NCBI RefSeq assembly: GCF_002355635.1
Contig: NZ_AP017558.1
Location: 2,046,001-2,110,000, forward strand
Direction: 5' to 3'
Origin: Halopenitus persicus
GTDB lineage: Archaea; Halobacteriota; Halobacteria; Halobacteriales; Haloferacaceae
Length of the DNA stretch: 64,000 bases
Shown: positions 48,177 through 58,370 of the stretch, one piece after another
Numbering within the stretch: the first letter of the stretch is position 1
Layout: each line of letters opens with the position of its first letter
Made by a program: the position numbers and the translations under genes
Notes under the pieces: model-generated
Told to the model about the DNA's origin: nothing
Seen by the model: only the letters and a program-made list of their open reading frames with translations
Database searches by the model: none

Positions 48177-49091
48177 TCACCCGTCGTTCGGATCGCCGTC
48201 GAATCCGTCACCGTCGTCGCCGTCGTCCTCGATTGCGCCGTCGTCCTCGATTGCGCCGTCGTCCTCGATTGCGCCGTCGTCCTCGATTGCGCCGTCGTCG
48301 ATCACGCCCTCGAGCGGCCGCGATCGATCCCGGACGCGATCGAACCACGTCAGCGCCCACTCGTGGACCGACTCGTCGGCACACTCGAGCAGGGCTCGTG
48401 GCGTGTTCTGGTCGTCGTAGGCCATCAGACACGTCCGTGGCCCCTCGCGATCGGTGAACAGTCCGACCCCGAGCGGGTCCGGATGAACGCTCACTGAGAC
48501 GTCGCAGCGGTCGACCGCGCGCGTCAGCGCCTCCGGGAACGTCTCGGCGGAGGTTTCGAGGACGCGCTCGTCGATCACCAGCCGGATGCTCGTCCCCCGC
48601 CCGAGCAGTTCCATCGCGGCCTCGTTGAACGTCCGCGAGACGATGGGCGAGACGCTTCTGACGGCGGCCCCCTCGGTCTCCTCGAACCGGTCGATCAGGC
48701 GGTCGACCGGCGCGAGCGGATCCTGGGCGGTCGCCACGGTTAGGCTCCCGTGTTCGAAGGCCGCAGCCGGCATCTCGGCGGCGATCGGCTCCGCGTTGGC
48801 GGCGAAGGGTGCGAACTCGCGGGCCCGCGCGGTCGCATCGAGGAGGCCCTCGTAGGCGGCACACACCCGCTCGCCGGTCGCGGTCAGCCGGTAGGTCGCG
48901 TCCCGTTCGACCACCCAGCGGCGCTCTCGAAACCCCGCGAGCACGCGTTGGACCGTCGTTCGCGTCGAGTCGACGCGGCGAGTGATGGCTGCCGGCCGCA
49001 GCGGCTCCTCGCGGATCGTCCGGAGGATCTCGATCCGGCCCGGCGACCCCGCCAGATAGCGGACGTCCTCGTGCGCGTCCTCGCTCGGCAT
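48177..49091 (-). CDS. Winged-helix regulator with FilR1-like middle domain
   Basis: 304 residues. A winged helix fills about 8-85 (IEILRTIREEPLRPAAITRR, STRTTVQRVLAGFRERRWVV). The middle part (about 110-260) with GTSIRLVIDERVLETSAETF and VSVHPDPLGVGLFTDREGPR matches the FilR1 domain family (PF08350, from memory). The tail has four 6-residue EDDGAI-type repeats encoded by 18-bp tandem DNA. It is probably a repressor or ligand-controlled regulator in the cytoplasm. ATG 49091 follows the minus-strand TATA-like CGTATTTGG. It lies after the pilus-like operon in the same orientation. Confidence 0.82.
   Translation of the reverse strand: MPSEDAHEDVRYLAGSPGRIEILRTIREEPLRPAAITRRVDSTRTTVQRVLAGFRERRWVVERDATYRLTATGERVCAAYEGLLDATARAREFAPFAANAEPIAAEMPAAAFEHGSLTVATAQDPLAPVDRLIDRFEETEGAAVRSVSPIVSRTFNEAAMELLGRGTSIRLVIDERVLETSAETFPEALTRAVDRCDVSVSVHPDPLGVGLFTDREGPRTCLMAYDDQNTPRALLECADESVHEWALTWFDRVRDRSRPLEGVIDDGAIEDDGAIEDDGAIEDDGAIEDDGDDGDGFDGDPNDG
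48222..48300. repeat. 18-bp tandem repeat inside the regulator gene's 3' end
   Basis: GTCGTCCTCGATTGCGCC starts at 48222, 48240, 48258 and 48276, with a partial copy at 48294. The 18-base period keeps the reading frame, giving a repeating DDGAIE tail on the minus strand. Confidence 0.97.
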
Positions 49092-49180
49092 CGGGCAGAC
49101 GTTCGGCGAACGCGCCCAAATACGTGTCGCCACGGAGCGTGTCGCGTCCGACCGAGACGTCGTCCGGTCACGTCGTCGGC

Positions 49181-49756
49181 TCACGGCACGACGACGACCG
49201 TGGCCGTGGTCGTCCCGCTCGCCCGCCGGATGTCGACCTTGAGGGCGACGGCGACGACCGTCGTCGTTCCCGCGCGGTCCTGCACGACGACGCCGCGATC
49301 AGCCTCGCAGCCGCCGAAGACGCGGTTCGGACCGGCGGGACACGACGCCGCGCTCCGGGCCGCTGCGACCGAGGGTGCCGCCGTGACCGCGATCACCGTT
49401 CCGTCGCGGATCGTCGCCCCCTCAACCGCGTCGAGGTCCCCCTCGAGGCCGTCGTGATACGCCGACACCGCCGCCCGGCGATCGCTCCATCCGTACGCGC
49501 CGGCGACGTCACCGATCCGAATCGTCGCCGTTCGGTCGACTGCTTCGAGAACCGCGGCGTCGGCTCCGCCAGGGAATCCAGCCGGCCCGGCCGTTTCAAC
49601 CGCCGGCTCCCGGGCCACGTCGCCCGCGTACCCGAGCTGCAGGTACGCGAGCGCGAGCGGCACGAGCGCCAGCGCGAGCGTGACCGCCGCGAGCAGGACG
49701 AGCTGGCCGCGGTCGCGACCGGCGCCGGCTCGCGTTCCGGTTCGGGTCACCGCCAC
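49181..49756 (-). CDS. Pilin-like minor protein (last gene of the pilus operon)
   Basis: 191 residues from GTG 49756. After a basic N-terminus, RDRGQLVLLAAVTLALALVP gives the G-Q junction and hydrophobic stretch of an archaeal prepilin; PibD would cut after the G. The rest is a soluble acidic domain (VLEAVDRTATIRIGDVAGAY) with a conserved-looking cysteine pair in SCPAGPNRVFGGC. Families of this kind are labelled DUF7261-type in related genomes (memory, unverified). It overlaps the previous gene by 10 bases. Probably a minor pilus subunit. Confidence 0.72.
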   Translation of the reverse strand: MAVTRTGTRAGAGRDRGQLVLLAAVTLALALVPLALAYLQLGYAGDVAREPAVETAGPAGFPGGADAAVLEAVDRTATIRIGDVAGAYGWSDRRAAVSAYHDGLEGDLDAVEGATIRDGTVIAVTAAPSVAAARSAASCPAGPNRVFGGCEADRGVVVQDRAGTTTVVAVALKVDIRRASGTTTATVVVVP

Positions 49757-50286
49757 ACCGCCACGACGACTCGTCCGTTTCGCGTGTGCAGCGCCGCCCG
49801 GCCCACGGTCGCCCCGGACGGCGGTTCGGTCCCGACGTCGCCGTGGGGAGTCCTCACGTGATACCGGAGCCGGTCGGGGACGAGCGCGTCGGTGCGGGCG
49901 TCGATCGCCTCGCGCTCGGCCGCGAAGGTCTCCGGGGTCGCGATCGCCGCGGGAAGCGGCGCTCCGGTCGCGTTCCCGTCGCCGTCGTCCTCCGTCCCGG
50001 CCTCATCACCGAACATCGCCCCGGCCTCATCGCCGAGCACTGCCCCGCCCTCGTTCCCGAGCACCGTCGCGACGTCGGTCGCGTAGGCGTCGAGGTCCGC
50101 GGCCCCGGTGCCAGGATCCGGCGGCACAACGGTGAACGCGGTCGCGAGCGCCAGCACGAACGCCACGCCGATGGCCGCCTCGACGGCCGACAGCGAGAGC
50201 TGGCCGCGAGACGGCGGGGTGGACCCCTCCGTGGCCCCGTCGAGCGCGACGCGGGCGGCGGCATCGTCGGGTGCGCCGCTATCCAT
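49747..50286 (-). CDS. Pilin-like minor protein
   Basis: 179 residues. SRGQLSLSAVEAAIGVAFVL is a prepilin-like G-Q junction and hydrophobic helix, preceded by 28 residues of acidic leader. A low-complexity stretch with three GDEAG-type repeats follows, then a beta domain, DALVPDRLRYHVRT, to the end. The start codon at 50284-50286 lies within one copy of a 19-bp direct repeat whose other copy holds the stop of the gene before. Function inferred from context: minor pilin or pseudopilin of the 49-57 kb operon. Confidence 0.72.
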   Translation of the reverse strand: MDSGAPDDAAARVALDGATEGSTPPSRGQLSLSAVEAAIGVAFVLALATAFTVVPPDPGTGAADLDAYATDVATVLGNEGGAVLGDEAGAMFGDEAGTEDDGDGNATGAPLPAAIATPETFAAEREAIDARTDALVPDRLRYHVRTPHGDVGTEPPSGATVGRAALHTRNGRVVVAVWR

Positions 50287-50317
50287 CGACGGTCACCCTA
50301 TCCATCGACGGTCACCC
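50280..50317. repeat. 19-bp direct repeat at a gene junction in the pilus operon
   Basis: TATCCATCGACGGTCACCC occurs at 50280-50298 and 50299-50317. One copy carries the stop of the upstream gene (TAG, 50298-50300) and the other the start codon of the next gene (ATG, 50284-50286). The duplication appears to have separated two genes that once overlapped. Confidence 0.9.
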
Positions 50318-51023
50318 TGAGGACCACCGGCGTTCGTCGCTCGTGCTCGATCCGTACCTCGACCACGCCGATCCCCGTGAACGCGACGGTCGCGGCTCGC
50401 CCTCGAGGAAGATCGACCGTCGCCGAACCCCGGATCCCGTCCGGCCGGTGCAGCACCACCCGGTCGTTTACCCGAACCGCGGTCACGTTCCCGGAGACGA
50501 TCCTGACTGTAGCGGTTCGTGCGGCGGCGGATGCCTCCCGCGTAGTCTCCCCGTCAACGTGGACACGGTGAGTTCGGTTTTCTGAGTGCGCGAGGACCGC
50601 GATCCGGCTCGTGCGTTCGCCCCCGCGGACCGACCCACGCTCCAGGATCGTCCGTTCCTCGACCGGCAGCTCCGCGACCGCGTCGCCCGCGATCCGGATC
50701 CGGAACGCCCGTCCACGAACCGCCGGGACGGCGTTCTCGACCGTCTCGGCCGAGAGCGCCAGCGTCGCCTCCCGGTCGAGAACGTTCCGGCGCCGCGTCG
50801 TCGGTCCCTCCGGATCGACGAGCACGTCGGCCAGCGTGACCGCAGCACCGCGGGTCACGCCGTCGCGTTCCGCGGCCGTTCGGGCCTCGTCGGCGACCGA
50901 GACGGCGAGCACGGTCGCCGAGGTCAGGATCACGAGCGCGACGACGAGCGTCGGAAACGCAGCCTGGGCACGAGCGCGTTCGGGACCGCCACGCTCGATC
51001 CCACGCTGTCGCGGCACGGTCAT
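50298..51023 (-). CDS. Pilin-like minor protein
   Basis: 241 residues. A positively charged start (RGGPERARAQAAFPTLVVAL) leads into one hydrophobic helix, VVALVILTSATVLAVSV, in a prepilin-like arrangement (A-Q instead of G-Q). The rest is a beta-rich domain ending with repeated strands, TVAFTGIGVVEVRI and TPVVLRVTVDG. It overlaps the next upstream gene by ATGA (51020-51023). I do not recognise a named family beyond haloarchaeal DUF726x-type proteins. Probably a minor subunit of the pilus-like system. Confidence 0.7.
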   Translation of the reverse strand: MTVPRQRGIERGGPERARAQAAFPTLVVALVILTSATVLAVSVADEARTAAERDGVTRGAAVTLADVLVDPEGPTTRRRNVLDREATLALSAETVENAVPAVRGRAFRIRIAGDAVAELPVEERTILERGSVRGGERTSRIAVLAHSENRTHRVHVDGETTREASAAARTATVRIVSGNVTAVRVNDRVVLHRPDGIRGSATVDLPRGRAATVAFTGIGVVEVRIEHERRTPVVLRVTVDG

Positions 51024-51541
51024 CGATTCACCAACTCCACCGTCAGCCCCGTCTCCACCCGACGAACCACGACGAGCGTCCGTGCGTCGCTCCGCCAGGT
51101 GCTTGCCGTCCCCGCCGGCTCCGTTGGGAAGGCAAGCCGCCGCCGGCCGCCGACGGCCGGGTCCGGGTGCTCGAGCGTGAGCGCCCCGTCGGCGAACCGG
51201 ATCCGATATGATTCGCCCCGGATCGTCTCCGGGAGGTCGACCGCCCGCCTGGTCGTCGCCGAGCGGACCGCCGACGAGCGCGGATCCGGCGGGACGGCCG
51301 ACGTGATCGCGTGACCGGCCGCGGTCAGCGTCCGGTCGCCGACCTCCTCCGCGACCGCCGACCGGTAGTCCGGAACCACGCCGCCGTAGAGCGCGGTCGA
51401 CAGCGTGGCCACGAACAGCACGACGATGCCGATCTCCAGGAGTTTGCCGGCGACCGGCGTCACGGCACGGGACCGGGTCGTCGACGCGGTTCGGGATCGG
51501 GTCGGCGTTCCGTGGGTTCGGAGCGGCGGCTTACGACCCAT
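51020..51541 (-). CDS. Pilin-like minor protein
   Basis: 173 residues. The basic leader SRTASTTRSRAVTPVAGKLL is followed by one membrane helix, IGIVVLFVATLSTALYG; RAVTPVAG resembles the RA-x-SP-V-x-G cleavage region of archaeal pilins. A small beta domain follows (SYRIRFADGALTLEHPD, LVVVRRVETGLTVELV). It overlaps the neighbour upstream by 11 bases and the next gene by ATGA. Function inferred from operon position. Confidence 0.7.
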   Translation of the reverse strand: MGRKPPLRTHGTPTRSRTASTTRSRAVTPVAGKLLEIGIVVLFVATLSTALYGGVVPDYRSAVAEEVGDRTLTAAGHAITSAVPPDPRSSAVRSATTRRAVDLPETIRGESYRIRFADGALTLEHPDPAVGGRRRLAFPTEPAGTASTWRSDARTLVVVRRVETGLTVELVNR

Positions 51542-52427
51542 TCGTCACCTCCAGATCCAGATCGATGGTGCGGACCAGAAGGTACCCCTCCCGATCGCCG
51601 TCGACCGTCACGACCACGCTCCCGTAGTCGTCGCCGGCGAACCGTCGTCGGTCGATCGACAGCGAGGGATCCGCCTCGGGATCGTTTGCGGCGGCCCGGT
51701 CGCCAGTCCGCCGGATCGCCCGTTCGACTGCGGCCGGGGTCGACGTCTCGATGGCGATCCGGACGGGTCCGGTTCCCAGGTCCCGCTCGTCGTGATCGAC
51801 CACCATCCGAAGGCGAGCAGTCCCGCCCGACGCGTCGATCGTTCCGTCGACTGCCCTGCCGTCCGCCCTGCCGGCCGTCCGGCTACCCGCACCGACCGCC
51901 CCGCCGCCCCGGATCACGGGGATCGTAGCCACGAACGCGTCCTCGCCGACGAGGAGCGCCGGATCCCGGACGGCGATCGCGCCGTCGCCGTACTCCCGGA
52001 CGACGAGCCCGGCGACGCTCACGACGCGCTGGTTCCCCGAGTTCGGGACGTAGCGGATCCCGTTCGCCTCGAGGGACTGCCAGCCGTCGCCGTCGTGTAC
52101 CCGGACGGTTCGGTCGATCGTGTCGATGCGACCGCCGGACAGTCGGACCGATGCCGTCGTCCGGCCGCCGCGGGCGGTCGCGTCGATCGCGTCGGTCAGG
52201 TCGGCGGTCGTCGTTTCCATCCCGATCGCCCGCGCGTGCTCCTCGATGACGACGCCCGCACCGGCCGTGATCAACCCCAGGCTCGTGACCGTGATCGCGA
52301 TGAGGAGCGTCACTCCGACGACCGTCGATTGGCCGCGGCCAGTCGCTCGGACGCCGTCGGTCGGCGGTTTCCCGTCGGTGGTCGGCCCCGAACGTGGCGT
52401 CACGGGATCCCGTGCATCCGGGCTCAC
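51531..52427 (-). CDS. Pilin-like protein with archaellin-type N-terminus
   Basis: 298 residues from a GTG at 52425-52427 that overlaps the pilC stop (GTGA). RGQSTVVGVTLLIAITVTSL is the clearest class III prepilin motif of the operon: G before Q-S-T-V-V-G, like DUF1628-type archaeal pilins. The long soluble part has repeated beta strands (NSGNQRVVSVAGLVVREYGD, GSVVVTVDGDREGYLLVRTI). Being longest and closest to pilC, it may be the main or tip subunit. The frame is open upstream through pilC by chance. Confidence 0.75.
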   Translation of the reverse strand: MSPDARDPVTPRSGPTTDGKPPTDGVRATGRGQSTVVGVTLLIAITVTSLGLITAGAGVVIEEHARAIGMETTTADLTDAIDATARGGRTTASVRLSGGRIDTIDRTVRVHDGDGWQSLEANGIRYVPNSGNQRVVSVAGLVVREYGDGAIAVRDPALLVGEDAFVATIPVIRGGGAVGAGSRTAGRADGRAVDGTIDASGGTARLRMVVDHDERDLGTGPVRIAIETSTPAAVERAIRRTGDRAAANDPEADPSLSIDRRRFAGDDYGSVVVTVDGDREGYLLVRTIDLDLEVTNGS

Positions 52428-54535
52428 AGCAGCCCGACCCCCGCGAAGACGACGTAACAGACCCCGACGAGAACGCCGGAGTGCAACAGCGCCTCGTACC
52501 AGCCGCGGGAGGCGACCCCCGCGAACCAGCCCGACGCGAGCATCGTCGCCTGAAGCACGACGTAGAAACGATACCGCTCGCGCTCGGGGCGTATCGTTCC
52601 GGGATCGAACCGGACGGCCGAGGCATCCGAGACGGCCGAGAGCTGGGCGAACCCGTCGATGACGTGGAGGTTGACCGCGACGACGATCCCGATGACCAAC
52701 AGCGCCGCCGTCCAGCCCACCGCGACGTACACGAGCATCGCGGACCGAAGCGCTCGTTTCTGGTGGTAGAGCCGTCCGATCTCCGTCTGGAGCGTCTCGA
52801 AGACCGTTTGGGTGTCGCTGCCGGCGTCGAGCGCCCCCGTGATGAGCCCCACCGTCTGCTCGGCCAGCGGCGTCCCGACGTTCTCGACGAACCGGTTCAG
52901 CGCCGCGGTTCGGACCGTTTTCCGTTCGGCCTCGGCGCTGGCGATCCGTTCGGCCCCCGCGTCGGCGTTCCCATCGGGTTCCGCATCGGCGTTCGTCGAC
53001 CGATCGAGGACGTTCCGCGCGGCCCGCTCGTTTCCGGTCGTCAGCGAGAGGTTGAACGCCAGGTCCGCCACGTCGGCGTCGAGCGCGCCGAGGTCGACGT
53101 CCCGAGCGACGAGCGCGACCGCCTCCGGGAAGGGGCGACCGAGCGAGACGTGCCCCGAGACGGCGTGGACGAAGTCCTTGATCTCCCGGTCCTTCGCGTC
53201 GTCGAGTCGGGCGCGCCGGACCGAGACGATCCCGGTCGGCACGGCGAAGAGGACGTAGCCGAGCGCCACGACGTTGACCGGATCGACGCCGGCGTTCGCG
53301 AGCACCGCGCTCGCGCCGATCGCCGGACCGGCGACCACCGCCGCCGCGGATCGAGGATTGACGGGAACGCTCCGACACAGCGCCACCACCCCGTCCGGCA
53401 GCTCGTAGTGCGTCCGCTGGTCGGGCGGCCGCAGCCGTTCGACCATCGTCGACGAGGCGAGCCCGACGACCAGGATGAACGCCGCGCTGCCGTAGACGAT
53501 CGCGGCGCGCGTCGACGTCGAGCCGACCGGCGTGTGGATCGGATCCGACAGGCCGGGCGCGATCACCCCGATCACGGTCAGGACGATGACCAGCAGCGTC
53601 GGCAACACCAACAACACGATGAACAGCTCCGAGAGCAGCTCCAGGAACCCCTCCGCGCGCTTTCGGGCCCGGTCCTCCCGATGGCCGAGCATCCGCCCCT
53701 CCATCGCGAGGTAGTTGCCGAGGGCGTCCTCGCCCTGGTTGGCGTGTTCGCGGAACTTGAGGAGGAAGGGCGCCAACAGGTCGTTCGAGGGCGTATCCCG
53801 CGCGACGCGCCCGAGCGCCTGATCGAGACTGCCCGTCAGGCGCGCGCTGTTGAGCGCGGCCCGGAAGGCGACGGCCGTTTCGCCGTAGGCCTCGTTGGCT
53901 GCCGTCTTGCGGATCATCCCGCGTGCGGTGTCGCTGCCCGACGAGAGCGCGTGCAGGTATCGGACCGCGCCCGGAAGGGTGCGCTCGATGTCCGTCCGCC
54001 GAGCGGTCGCGATCCACCGGAGGTACGATCCGCCGCCGCGGACGACGCCACGCTTTGCGACGGCGCCGGCGAGAACCGCCGCGCCGAGGACGACCCACTC
54101 CGGCGGGAGCCGGGCGAGTCCGATCCCGTCGGTCGGCAGCCCCGACGCGAGCGCGGCGTCGACCCGGGTCAGGAGGGCCGGCGAAAGGCCACGTCCGATC
54201 AGCACGACGGGCATCGCGACTGCGACGCCGACGGCCCACGAGAGGCCGTATATTCGAGCGAGCAGCACGTCGAACGCGGTCCGTATCGCGGTTGCCCGAT
54301 ACCGGTCGCGGTCGCGAGCGTGCCGAGCCGCGTCGGCGTGCCGGGCGAACAGCGCGTGTAGCCCGCGGTCGACCGCGGAGACGCCCGAGTCGGTTCCGAC
54401 GACCGATCGATGCGGCTCGGCGGGGTCGATGTCGGATTCCGCCGTCCCGTCGCGATCGCCGCGTTTCGACCCGTTCCCGAGCGCCGTGGGGGGCGTCGCC
54501 ATGGTGCTCGAAACTGCCGGATCCCCGTCGCTCAT
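52424..54535 (-). CDS. pilC: PilC/TadC-type membrane platform protein (T2SF family)
   Basis: 703 residues. Two type II secretion F domains, one in each half (ALSSGSDTARGMIRKTAANE and HAVSGHVSLGRPFPEAVALV), each flanked by membrane helices; about eight helices in all (for example LFIVLLVLPTLLVIVLTVIG). It is the inner-membrane platform that the PilB ATPase turns or pushes to extend pilin. It begins with an ATGA overlap with pilB and ends with a GTGA overlap with the first pilin-like gene. Confidence 0.92.
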   Translation of the reverse strand: MSDGDPAVSSTMATPPTALGNGSKRGDRDGTAESDIDPAEPHRSVVGTDSGVSAVDRGLHALFARHADAARHARDRDRYRATAIRTAFDVLLARIYGLSWAVGVAVAMPVVLIGRGLSPALLTRVDAALASGLPTDGIGLARLPPEWVVLGAAVLAGAVAKRGVVRGGGSYLRWIATARRTDIERTLPGAVRYLHALSSGSDTARGMIRKTAANEAYGETAVAFRAALNSARLTGSLDQALGRVARDTPSNDLLAPFLLKFREHANQGEDALGNYLAMEGRMLGHREDRARKRAEGFLELLSELFIVLLVLPTLLVIVLTVIGVIAPGLSDPIHTPVGSTSTRAAIVYGSAAFILVVGLASSTMVERLRPPDQRTHYELPDGVVALCRSVPVNPRSAAAVVAGPAIGASAVLANAGVDPVNVVALGYVLFAVPTGIVSVRRARLDDAKDREIKDFVHAVSGHVSLGRPFPEAVALVARDVDLGALDADVADLAFNLSLTTGNERAARNVLDRSTNADAEPDGNADAGAERIASAEAERKTVRTAALNRFVENVGTPLAEQTVGLITGALDAGSDTQTVFETLQTEIGRLYHQKRALRSAMLVYVAVGWTAALLVIGIVVAVNLHVIDGFAQLSAVSDASAVRFDPGTIRPERERYRFYVVLQATMLASGWFAGVASRGWYEALLHSGVLVGVCYVVFAGVGLL

Positions 54536-57033
54536 TCGGCAGCCTCGCTTCGGGACTCCTCGTCGAAGCGATCGGTTCCGGGAACGCCGTCGTTCGTGGC
54601 GTCGTCATCGGGGCCCCCGTTTTCCGGCGCTGCGGGACTGCCCTCGTTCGATTCGGTGCCGGCGTCGGTCGATCGGAGCGCGCGCTCGACCGTCGCGGCC
54701 TCGTCGGTCCGCAGATCCGAGAGGAACTCGAAGAGCGCCTCGAAGTCGTCGACCCCCTCAGCGGCGAGGTAGCGAACGTACCGGTGTTTTCGGTGGAACT
54801 CGGCCTCGACGTCGGCGACGTCGCGGTCGGTCCGCTCCGCGAGCCGGGTGAACAGCGCGAAGCCGAGGGATCCCTCCGTGGCCGTACCGCGGTCGGTCTC
54901 GCCGACCGCCGACGTCGCGTCGTCCCCGTCGCTCGCCAGCGCCGGGTGGTCGTACTCGATCGCGAACGTCCCGTCGGTGTCACGCCAGGCGACCGTGTTC
55001 CAGTGCACCGTGGTCCCGTCCTTCCGTATCGTGCCGCCGCCACCCCGCCGCCGTACGCCGTCGGTCCCCCGGAGCGCGGCGCCGTCGAGCGCCTCGAACT
55101 CCTCGTCCGAGAGGATCTCGACGACGTGTGCGACGTATCGCTCCCCACGAGTCTTGTGGGGGAACACCACCAGATCCAGCTCGCGAAGCAGGTACGCCGG
55201 CAGCCCCTGCTCGATCACCCGGTTGACGAGCGTCTCGACGTCCTCGGCGTGTGTGGTTCCGAGCACCCCGTGGCCAGTATTCAGGGTCTCGGCGAAGGTC
55301 GCGAAGGACGCCGGCGTGTTGATCTCCGCGATGACCTCGACGTCGGGGTTTAAATAGTTCGTCTCGGTCATCAGCTCCGCCATCGTCACCCGCTTGTACT
55401 CGTTCTCGTGGTCGCGGGTCGTCAGCGAGACGCCCGTCTCGTGGGGGAGATGGACCTCGCGTGACCCCTCGTCGATCGATATCGGTCGGTCGTCGAAGGG
55501 GATAAACGGCATATGCGCGTTCATCAACGTCGTCTTCCCGACGCCCGTCGGCCCGGAAAAGAGCACGACACCGTGGTGTTCATACAGCAGCCACAGCAGC
55601 GTCACCAGCTCCGTCGAGAGCGCGTCCCGGTCGAGCAGGTCGACCGGCGTCATCGTCTCCGCCGACTGTTTGCGGATCGAGACGTGGGGACCACCCTCGG
55701 AGATCACCGGCAGCGCGACCGCACACCGGATCGTCTCCGCGACGCCGTCGACGTCGAGGTTCACCTTCGCCGAGGGGCGCGCGGCGTTGAGCTCAGTGCC
55801 GTCGCTGGCGGCCAGCTGGGTCACCACGTTGACGAACTCCCGCTCGGTCGTGAACGCCAGGTTGGTCGGCACGCGGTCGCCGGCGCCGCCGGCATCGTCG
55901 AAGACGGTCGTTCGCGGCACGACCTTGATCCGTTCGTCCACCCGGTTCGCCTCGATGTCCTCCAGGTTCGGGTCGCGTATCGGAACCGTCAGGATGCCCT
56001 CGCCGACGTAGTCACGCAACACGTAGTAGACGAGGTCATCGAGCCGATCGCGGGCGTAGCGGGAGTCGATCGGGGGAACGGCGAGCCCGTAGGCTGCAAG
56101 CGTCGACCGAACCCGGTAGCGCGTCGCCTCGAGCCACGCGCGGGCGTTGTTCGCCAGCAGCCGTCGCGCGAGGAATCGCCGGGCTCGGTCGGCGACGAAC
56201 GACTCCCGATCGGTCACGACGCGGTCGACGTTGGACTCCCAGATCCGGGATTTGCACTCGTCGATCAGCGCTTCGTCGCCCGGCAGTAGGTCCGGCTCGA
56301 GGACCGCGTACTTCGTCTCGAACCTGTCTGAACCGAGGAGCCGCTCCCGGTAGATGACCACGTCCACGTCGAAGCCGGCGAAGGGAACCGTATACCGGTG
56401 GAGCCGCTCGCCGGCGACGCGGTCGACGTATCGGGCGTCCGCGGAGACGCCGGTTCGGACCGGCGCGAACGACTCCGTATGGACGACCAGCTCGTCGGAA
56501 TCGCCCACGTCGGCCACCTCGATCCGGGGATCCACCGCGAGCGGCGTCAGATCCTCGAGCAGCCGTAGCTCGCTCAACGCGTGGTGATCGATCCGCCGGC
56601 GGGCGGCCGGCGTCGTCTCGAGTAGCCGGTCGATCGCCCGCTCGTATTTCGGCTCGAACCCGCGGTTCGCCCGCTCGAGTACGCCCTGTCTGGTGAGCGG
56701 ACGCCGATGGCGGGTCGCCGAGAAGTGGTCCCGAATCGTCGCCAGGGCGGCCTCGTCGGTCGGCGACAGCGGCGGCCGGCGGCTCTCGTGGACGAACTCG
56801 CCGTCGCGTTCCCGGATCGTGGTGACGATTCCCGAGACCGGCTCGTACTGTGCCCGGACCGCGGGCGCGTACCACGCGTCCGGATCGTCCGGCGGCCGCG
56901 GCGCGGGGACCGCCGTGGCTGGCCAGGACGTCCTTCCGTTCCGATCCGTCCCCGTACCGCCCTCGCTGCCGTTCCCGGCATCATTCCCGCTTCGTTCCTC
57001 CTCGGCCGACGACCGCACACTCACGTCTTCCAC
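54532..57033 (-). CDS. pilB: PilB/VirB11-type secretion ATPase
   Basis: 833 residues from GTG 57033. The ATPase core has Walker A SGPTGVGKTTLM near residue 492, an Asp box (PISIDEGSREVHL), Walker B VEVIAEIN and the His box GVLGTTHAEDVETL. A 300-residue N-terminal domain precedes it and an acidic tail follows. It powers assembly of type IV pilus-like fibres with PilC. It is the first gene of a seven-gene operon on the minus strand. No prepilin peptidase is present in the window. Confidence 0.94.
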   Translation of the reverse strand: MEDVSVRSSAEEERSGNDAGNGSEGGTGTDRNGRTSWPATAVPAPRPPDDPDAWYAPAVRAQYEPVSGIVTTIRERDGEFVHESRRPPLSPTDEAALATIRDHFSATRHRRPLTRQGVLERANRGFEPKYERAIDRLLETTPAARRRIDHHALSELRLLEDLTPLAVDPRIEVADVGDSDELVVHTESFAPVRTGVSADARYVDRVAGERLHRYTVPFAGFDVDVVIYRERLLGSDRFETKYAVLEPDLLPGDEALIDECKSRIWESNVDRVVTDRESFVADRARRFLARRLLANNARAWLEATRYRVRSTLAAYGLAVPPIDSRYARDRLDDLVYYVLRDYVGEGILTVPIRDPNLEDIEANRVDERIKVVPRTTVFDDAGGAGDRVPTNLAFTTEREFVNVVTQLAASDGTELNAARPSAKVNLDVDGVAETIRCAVALPVISEGGPHVSIRKQSAETMTPVDLLDRDALSTELVTLLWLLYEHHGVVLFSGPTGVGKTTLMNAHMPFIPFDDRPISIDEGSREVHLPHETGVSLTTRDHENEYKRVTMAELMTETNYLNPDVEVIAEINTPASFATFAETLNTGHGVLGTTHAEDVETLVNRVIEQGLPAYLLRELDLVVFPHKTRGERYVAHVVEILSDEEFEALDGAALRGTDGVRRRGGGGTIRKDGTTVHWNTVAWRDTDGTFAIEYDHPALASDGDDATSAVGETDRGTATEGSLGFALFTRLAERTDRDVADVEAEFHRKHRYVRYLAAEGVDDFEALFEFLSDLRTDEAATVERALRSTDAGTESNEGSPAAPENGGPDDDATNDGVPGTDRFDEESRSEAAE

Positions 57034-57345
57034 CTCACGGAGATTCTATTCAAATTTACTGTATTTAAGTATTTATTTCGTGTAACAATTTCTAATTATA
57101 TATTGGCGACGGCGAGCCATTCGCGGCGATCCCCTCGGCGAGGTCCTCGTCCGTTCTGCCGGTCGAACGTCTTCCGTTTTGCCGGTCGAACGTCTTCCAT
57201 TCTGCCGGCCGACGCACGCCGTCACATCGAGCGAAGGGAAGACGGAAAACGATTCGAACGGAGGTCAATACCACCGCGGTCGGACGCACGGCGACGCACG
57301 CGAAAGGGGAACAGAACAGCCCCCATCGTGGCGACCGGTCGGTGC
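57034..57345. promoter_or_regulatory. 312-base region with the pilus-operon promoter and a 23-bp repeat
   Basis: 57036-57112 is very A/T-rich. On the minus strand TTTGAATAG (about 57046-57054) and ACTTAAATAC (about 57062-57071) are TATA-like and lie just ahead of pilB. Further out, TGCCGGTCGAACGTCTTCC occurs at 57157 and 57180 with a decayed third start at 57203 (period 23). No gene is seen in the rest. Confidence 0.55.
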
Positions 57346-58296
57346 TCAGTCGATCCGCGCGATCCGGTCCTCAAGGGTTCGCCGATCCGACCGAATGTGG
57401 TCGACCACTTCCGCGACCGTGGCCAAGACGGGGTGTCGCGGTCCCTCGAGACCTTCGTAGAGGTACGCATAGAAGTCGGGGTCGCGTTCGGTGCGGCGGG
57501 TGAACGGCGGGTCCCGAAGCAGTTCCTGCCGGTCCGAGACGACCTCCTCGCAGGACTTCTCGAGGTCACCGAGGGACCGCCACACGTCGACTAAGGCGTC
57601 GAAGGACGGCTTCGATCGGCCCTCCGCGAGGTGGGCCTCGAGGTTGTTCCGGGTACGCTCGACGCGTTCGAGCCGAGCGTTCGAGGACTCCAGCTCCGCC
57701 AGCTCGGCGTCGACTGCCGACAGCAGCCGCTCCCGTGCCTGCGCCGCGCTTTGCCCGCGGTCCAAAAGCGTCGTCCGCAGCGCCGGCGGGAGTCGATCCT
57801 CCGTTTGGATCGCCCTCGCGACGTCCTCGCCGAGTTCCTCGGCGACGCTCATCGGGAACGAATCGTCGTATTCCTCGGCGTAGTGTGGCACCGACATCAC
57901 GGTCTCGCGGTACGCCTCGCGCGTCTGAACCAACCCGTCATCGGGCGGATCCGCGGAATCCGGCGGGAACCCGGCCAGTCGAACCGCGCCGTGCCCGGCC
58001 GGTTCGGCAGTCGTTCCCGATTCACGTGGCGTGACGCGCCGGAGCCGGTCGGTGAACTCCTCGAAGGCGTCCCGTTCGTCGACGACCCGGCGTCGCTCCT
58101 CACGAACGTGCGAACTCGCGTCGGCGATGTACGCGAACGCCGCGAAGACGGCGATTGAGGCGAACACGATGACCGAGACGACCGCCGGATCCGCGAGGAG
58201 ATCCGCCGTCTGACAGGTTAGATCGGCACATTCCGCGGCCAGAGGGTCCCGCGCGCCGATACGGAAGGAGACGCTTGCGGTCGACGAAAGTGACAT
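57346..58296 (-). CDS. Membrane-anchored coiled-coil protein (DUF7260-like)
   Basis: 316 residues. A short outer N-terminus with two cysteines (AECADLTCQTADLL) precedes one membrane helix, VVSVIVFASIAVFAAFAYIA, at about residues 42-62. A long helical, highly charged part follows with a coiled-coil character (ARERLLSAVDAELAELESSN, ARLERVERTRNNLEAHLAEG). I recall similar haloarchaeal proteins under DUF7260 (memory, unverified). Function unknown. It lies behind the pilus operon promoter, in the same direction but with its own start region, which holds 24-bp iterons. Confidence 0.7.
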   Translation of the reverse strand: MSLSSTASVSFRIGARDPLAAECADLTCQTADLLADPAVVSVIVFASIAVFAAFAYIADASSHVREERRRVVDERDAFEEFTDRLRRVTPRESGTTAEPAGHGAVRLAGFPPDSADPPDDGLVQTREAYRETVMSVPHYAEEYDDSFPMSVAEELGEDVARAIQTEDRLPPALRTTLLDRGQSAAQARERLLSAVDAELAELESSNARLERVERTRNNLEAHLAEGRSKPSFDALVDVWRSLGDLEKSCEEVVSDRQELLRDPPFTRRTERDPDFYAYLYEGLEGPRHPVLATVAEVVDHIRSDRRTLEDRIARID

Positions 58297-58370
58297 GGTA
58301 TGTGTACTCACACACTCGATCACGAAAGCTTTTCCGTCCGATCCCGATTTCCGGGAGCGGCCTGCGGTTG

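Follow-up and report, generated by a model that had tools for sequence, protein, structure and literature searches.

Within the 64,000-nucleotide stretch of a Halopenitus persicus contig analyzed here (the window), a tightly packed block on the minus strand, from 57033 to 49181, holds seven genes encoding PilB, PilC, and five single-helix proteins. We consider it very probable (about 0.85) that this block represents, in Halopenitus, the haloarchaeal PilB1-C1 T4P operon (clade 4C and, by gene content, pil-2) and that it works as an adhesive pilus with minor subunits and, most likely, a p2 shaft. Orthology, the conservation of the operon and its motifs, and the predicted pilin architecture of p2 come from this analysis; co-transcription and a role in adhesion come from the work of others on relatives, and we infer which subunit forms the shaft and what the remaining subunits do. 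Counting against the model are a similarity of p2 to PilA that lies below threshold, weak structural matches of p2, a stop in pilC2 of H. salinarum, and a Halorubrum clade that lacks these pilins. The operon is real, intact, well conserved, and of a known type.

Layout and identity of the operon

The features of the block are as follows, with a slash marking the expected cleavage site in each prepilin.

Candidate operon promoter, 57034..57100, minus strand: A+T-rich, directly upstream of pilB; some 33 bases ahead of the GTG lies a TATA-like TACTTAAATA (read from the sequence)
pilB, 54532..57033, minus strand: PilB/VirB11-type assembly ATPase, 833 aa, by sequence an ortholog of H. volcanii PilB1 (HVO_0620) (PF00437, E 1.8e-22)
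pilC, 52424..54535, minus strand: multispanning membrane platform protein, 703 aa (PF00482, E 1e-12, two stretches)
p1, 51531..52427, minus strand: DUF7289 pilin, 298 aa, R-G/QSTVVG (PF23960, E 6.5e-28)
p2, 51020..51541, minus strand: DUF7266 pilin, 173 aa, R-A/VTPVAGK (PF23928, E 2.1e-50)
p3, 50298..51023, minus strand: DUF7263 pilin-like protein, 241 aa, R-A/QAAF (PF23924, E 5.4e-52)
p4, 49747..50286, minus strand: DUF7262 pilin-like protein, 179 aa, R-G/QLSLSAVE (PF23923, E 7.1e-39)
p5, 49181..49756, minus strand: DUF7261 pilin-like protein, 191 aa, R-G/QLVLLA (PF23922, E 9.4e-53)

All seven reading frames are intact, and all seven proteins score above their Pfam family cut-offs. pilB and pilC meet in ATGA, and pilC and p1 in GTGA; p1 overlaps p2 by 11 bases and p2 overlaps p3 by 4, whereas 11 bases separate p3 from p4, and p4 overlaps p5 by 10. 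The first-pass annotation had described exactly such a packed seven-gene operon and had called it a pilus-like machine with a pilin set of its own; the frames and overlaps agree with the former, and the latter is also correct.

To identify the operon, we turned to Haloferax. In Haloferax prahovense, the PilB ortholog (locus L054), about 64% identical to the window PilB, begins with the hvo_0620 start-codon primer ATGCCTACCCAAGGC, an exact match over 15 bases, and PilC ends in GVGLI, the end encoded by the published pilC1 end primer. Because the start of pilB and the end of pilC match these primers, the window operon corresponds to the one around HVO_0620-0619-0618, and sequence comparison thus makes it orthologous to the H. 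volcanii pilB1-C1 operon. A PilC/TadC-like protein adjoining PilB, which is a feature of clade 4C, is present (PF00482, with a 4-base overlap with pilB). An archaellum was rejected, as the window ATPase reaches 133.3 bits against a FlaI equivalog cut-off of 550 bits. The system is not new, and the operon type is already known from Haloferax and Halobacterium. The view that the machine is poorly described was therefore not sustained, given the matches to H. volcanii pilB1-C1, to H. salinarum pil-2 (by gene content), and to clade 4C. That the five subunits are individually uncharacterized was correct, in that our literature search found no study of any one of them; a search by name for DUF7289, DUF7266, DUF7263, DUF7262, and DUF7261 likewise found no paper using these names.

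Two flanking genes were considered as operon members and rejected. The gene directly after p5 (48177-49184) encodes a helix-turn-helix (HTH) regulator with HVO_A0261_N and FilR1_middle and a C terminus carrying several tandem DDGAIE repeats; it was left out of the conserved core, this family having been found after p5 in Halopenitus and five other loci (four of the Haloarcula/Halomicroarcula group and L096). Upstream of pilB, the DUF7260 gene (57346-58323) encodes a membrane and probable coiled-coil protein and adjoins the operon only in Halopenitus.

Conservation of the prepilin set and its apparent absence from a Halorubrum clade

Three prepilin motifs had been counted initially, which was too low. 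All five proteins carry the archaeal R-[GA] cleavage pair, since p3 reads ARA/QAAF and p2 reads SRA/VTPVAG; in both, positions -2 and -1 hold the canonical R and A. The charged leader and hydrophobic helix that had been noted in the five genes also stand, with class III signal peptide features found in all five families. Among homologs, [RK][GA] at -2/-1 is kept in 53/56 for p1, 56/56 for p2, 56/56 for p3, 54/55 for p4, and 56/56 for p5. This retention across five families is far beyond chance, and loss of the motif from most homologs, which the first-pass annotation had named as a refutation, did not occur. The p1 family (DUF7289) is probably equivalent to arCOG02911.

The first-pass annotation had also proposed surveying the co-occurrence of the seven genes, and we did so in 80 loci with PilB relatives from named genomes. 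All seven genes were present in the complete order pilB-pilC-p1-p5 in 55 of the 80, spanning at least 23 named genera, with overlaps mostly of 4 or 8 bases; all loci of known origin belong to Halobacteria. Of 60 relatives, 32 were judged to have a PilB1 ortholog and 32 gave a strong DUF7261 match, and the two occurred together in 30 of the 34 genomes having either (Fisher p ~2e-12, ignoring relatedness). When 14 control genomes were searched for DUF7261, only H. volcanii gave a match. One 99% complete genome of the same family (G007) has a strong DUF7261 match without any PilB relative, possibly a remnant. Haloferacaceae archaeon XH8 has identical copies of the pilus locus (L047 and L048) near both ends of its chromosome record, which may reflect an unclosed assembly overlap or a large duplication.

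Twenty PilB1 sequences without adjacent pilins group as a single clade (SH-aLRT 99) that lies within pilin-bearing relatives; 19 are labeled Halorubrum and one Halobellus captivus ZY8 (L032, L033, L034, L036, L037, L038, L039, L041, L042, L044, L045, L046, L049, L050, L051, L052, L058, L064, L079, and L088). All 20 retain an intact Walker A motif, and pilC is present wherever the contig reaches it. None of p1 to p5 was found beside pilB1 in this clade, with L050 uninformative as its contig ends just after pilB. Whole-genome searches of 13 clade genomes found no DUF7263 and only weak PilB4-type paralogs of DUF7261 and DUF7266, and on this basis search failure or relocation was rejected as the cause of the missing genes in these 13. 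Of 16 genomes checked, the 3 with a complete pilin set were the only ones to contain DUF7263 (the p3 family). Haloplanus ruber is a separate case in which the pilin block has moved about 70 kb away, and L081 and L100 lack pilins because their contigs end.

The simplest reading seems to be a single loss of the pilin block, with pilB1-C1 retained thereafter. Since this clade holds PilB1-C1 but not these pilins, the tie between motor and pilins is not a strict one, and the loss fits a published proposal of interchangeable pilin sets. The lineage offers a natural experiment on whether archaeal pilus motors can, as proposed, be re-used with other pilins. New here are the conservation of order in 55/80 loci, the pilin-less Halorubrum clade, and invariant helix charges in two of the pilins, which are described below.

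Subunit roles and alternative readings

In the mechanism that we propose, a prepilin peptidase encoded elsewhere would cut the charged leader off all five prepilins after R-[GA], and a candidate for this enzyme is present in the same genome, outside the operon. The hydrophobic helix would then hold the mature subunits in the membrane, PilC would collect them, and PilB, hydrolyzing ATP, would extrude them as a filament that serves in surface adhesion. The shaft would most likely consist of the PilA-like p2 (DUF7266), with p1, p3, p4, and p5 as minor subunits for initiating, capping, or adapting the fiber.

Among the five subunits, p2 appears to have the best claim to the major pilin role. The archaeal Pilin_N model gave weak matches in 9 of 53 DUF7266 members (E up to 0.01), the window p2 reached 17 bits, below the Pfam cut-off of 25 bits, and the DUF7266 profile found Natrinema PilA2 at E 0.019. 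The predicted p2 structure (pLDDT 87.7) is a 54-residue helix followed by a beta domain; its structural matches are few and weak (best Z 4.2) and include PAK pilin, FimA, FimU, and an archaeal pilin. For clade 4C, a census of archaeal T4P likewise suggests a major pilin of the PilA kind (PMC4858521). The statement that no subunit looks like a known major pilin is thus doubtful, because DUF7266 has pilin architecture and weak similarity to the PilA N terminus.

Structure models cover p2 and p5 among the five subunits, and neither had a significant Foldseek match in the PDB. For p5, the model (pLDDT 86.8) consists of a short membrane helix, a disordered or flexible linker, and an alpha/beta head, with no clear structural match by Foldseek against the PDB or by VIA; the VIA list is topped by parts of pantothenate synthetase with Z up to 6.8, a range that the tool calls common. 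Such a predicted shape would be more in keeping with a tip or adaptor than with a shaft. The p5 family (DUF7261) has two conserved cysteines in CPxGPxRxFGxC (alignment positions 128 and 139), which could form a disulfide. In Halopenitus, p4 (49747-50286) contains an extra acidic, repeat-like insertion (GNEGGAVLGDEAGAMFGDEAG...) and is about 20 residues longer than homologs outside the genus.

We also surveyed all five families for charges among the 22 residues that follow the cleavage site. Charged residues are kept in only two, p2 (Lys+7 in 56/56 and Glu+10 in 48/56) and p4 (Glu+8 in 55/55, inside the hydrophobic helix). In the other two pilus loci, the p2-like proteins have Tyr at the Lys+7 position and the DUF7288 proteins have Glu at +6. 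We propose that Lys+7 of p2 might pair with Glu+8 of p4, with Glu+10 in the same p2 helix being just as plausible a partner; these charges are simple point-mutation handles on subunit pairing. A bolder version would unite the five co-conserved prepilins in an obligate heteromeric pilus of their own, with DUF7266 Lys+7 and DUF7262 Glu+8 setting the in-membrane assembly order, and would have the retained Halorubrum PilB1-C1 re-assigned to pilins encoded elsewhere; we consider it unlikely.

The p2 shaft has to be weighed against the possibility that all five proteins are minor subunits of a priming and tip complex, the shaft being built from PilA-family pilins encoded elsewhere. The genome does encode six clear Pilin_N proteins outside the operon, H. 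volcanii PilB3-C3 uses pilins in trans, and five unequal subunits resemble a minor-pilin set. However, PilB1-C1 of H. volcanii failed to support the formation of PilA1-6 pili (PMC6491452), and p2 itself has a PilA-like N terminus and pilin architecture, so we hold this arrangement to be possible but doubtful. A short pseudopilus that drives protein secretion, rather than an extended fiber, would also fit a set of unequal pilin-like subunits served by a single ATPase and a single platform protein; the p5 head on its flexible linker is unusual, and we found no isolated filament of a PilB1-C1 system in published work on its counterparts or here. Such a secretory role is nonetheless quite improbable, given that transposon insertion or deletion at pilB1-C1 in H. 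volcanii causes an adhesion defect in casamino-acid medium (PMC6491452) and that no secreted-substrate gene was recognized in the conserved block. Least credible of all is a decayed or silent paralog with only indirect adhesion effects in relatives. H. salinarum pil-2 offers a precedent, with its pilC2 stop, an insertion in pilB2 in strain NRC-1, and a low pilB2 transcript (PMC4292770), but the window has seven intact frames, and both the gene order and the motifs persist in at least 23 named genera.

Relation to known pilus systems

The closest counterpart of the window operon is the H. volcanii pilB1-C1 operon of clade 4C (HVO_0620, HVO_0619, HVO_0618, and onward), with which it shares orthologous PilB and PilC, the gene order, and a first pilin whose start overlaps the pilC stop. 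The Haloferax loci L054 to L057 and L061 contain the same five pilin families. The window operon differs from this type in its diverged sequence (about 64% for PilB of Haloferax prahovense) and in the acidic insertion of p4. The H. salinarum pil-2 operon (OE1347R to OE1332R) was reported as seven co-transcribed open reading frames, three of them FlaFind prepilins, restricted to haloarchaea (PMC4292770). It resembles the window in gene content (pilB2, pilC2, and five more), a match made from the paper's description and not from sequence, but it has an in-frame stop in pilC2 of strain R1, whereas the window pilC is intact.

Euryarchaeal clade 2 T4P of the PilB4 type are also related. The census places the PilB1-type ATPase in clade 4C, with pilins partly common to PilB4-type clade 2 (PMC4858521), and in agreement with this, DUF7289, DUF7266, and DUF7261 recur in another pilus locus that the same genome carries (C1:2594788-2604351), one of the clade 2 type. 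In contrast to the window, however, these systems have a PilB only about 29% identical to the window's, another gene order, and DUF7288 in place of DUF7262 and DUF7263. The PilB3-C3/PilA pilus is likewise an archaeal adhesion T4P, and in H. volcanii PilB3-C3 was able to replace PilB1-C1 (PMC6491452). It has no pilin genes beside pilB3-C3, its shaft being made of PilA1-6 encoded in trans, whereas the window operon has pilins of its own.
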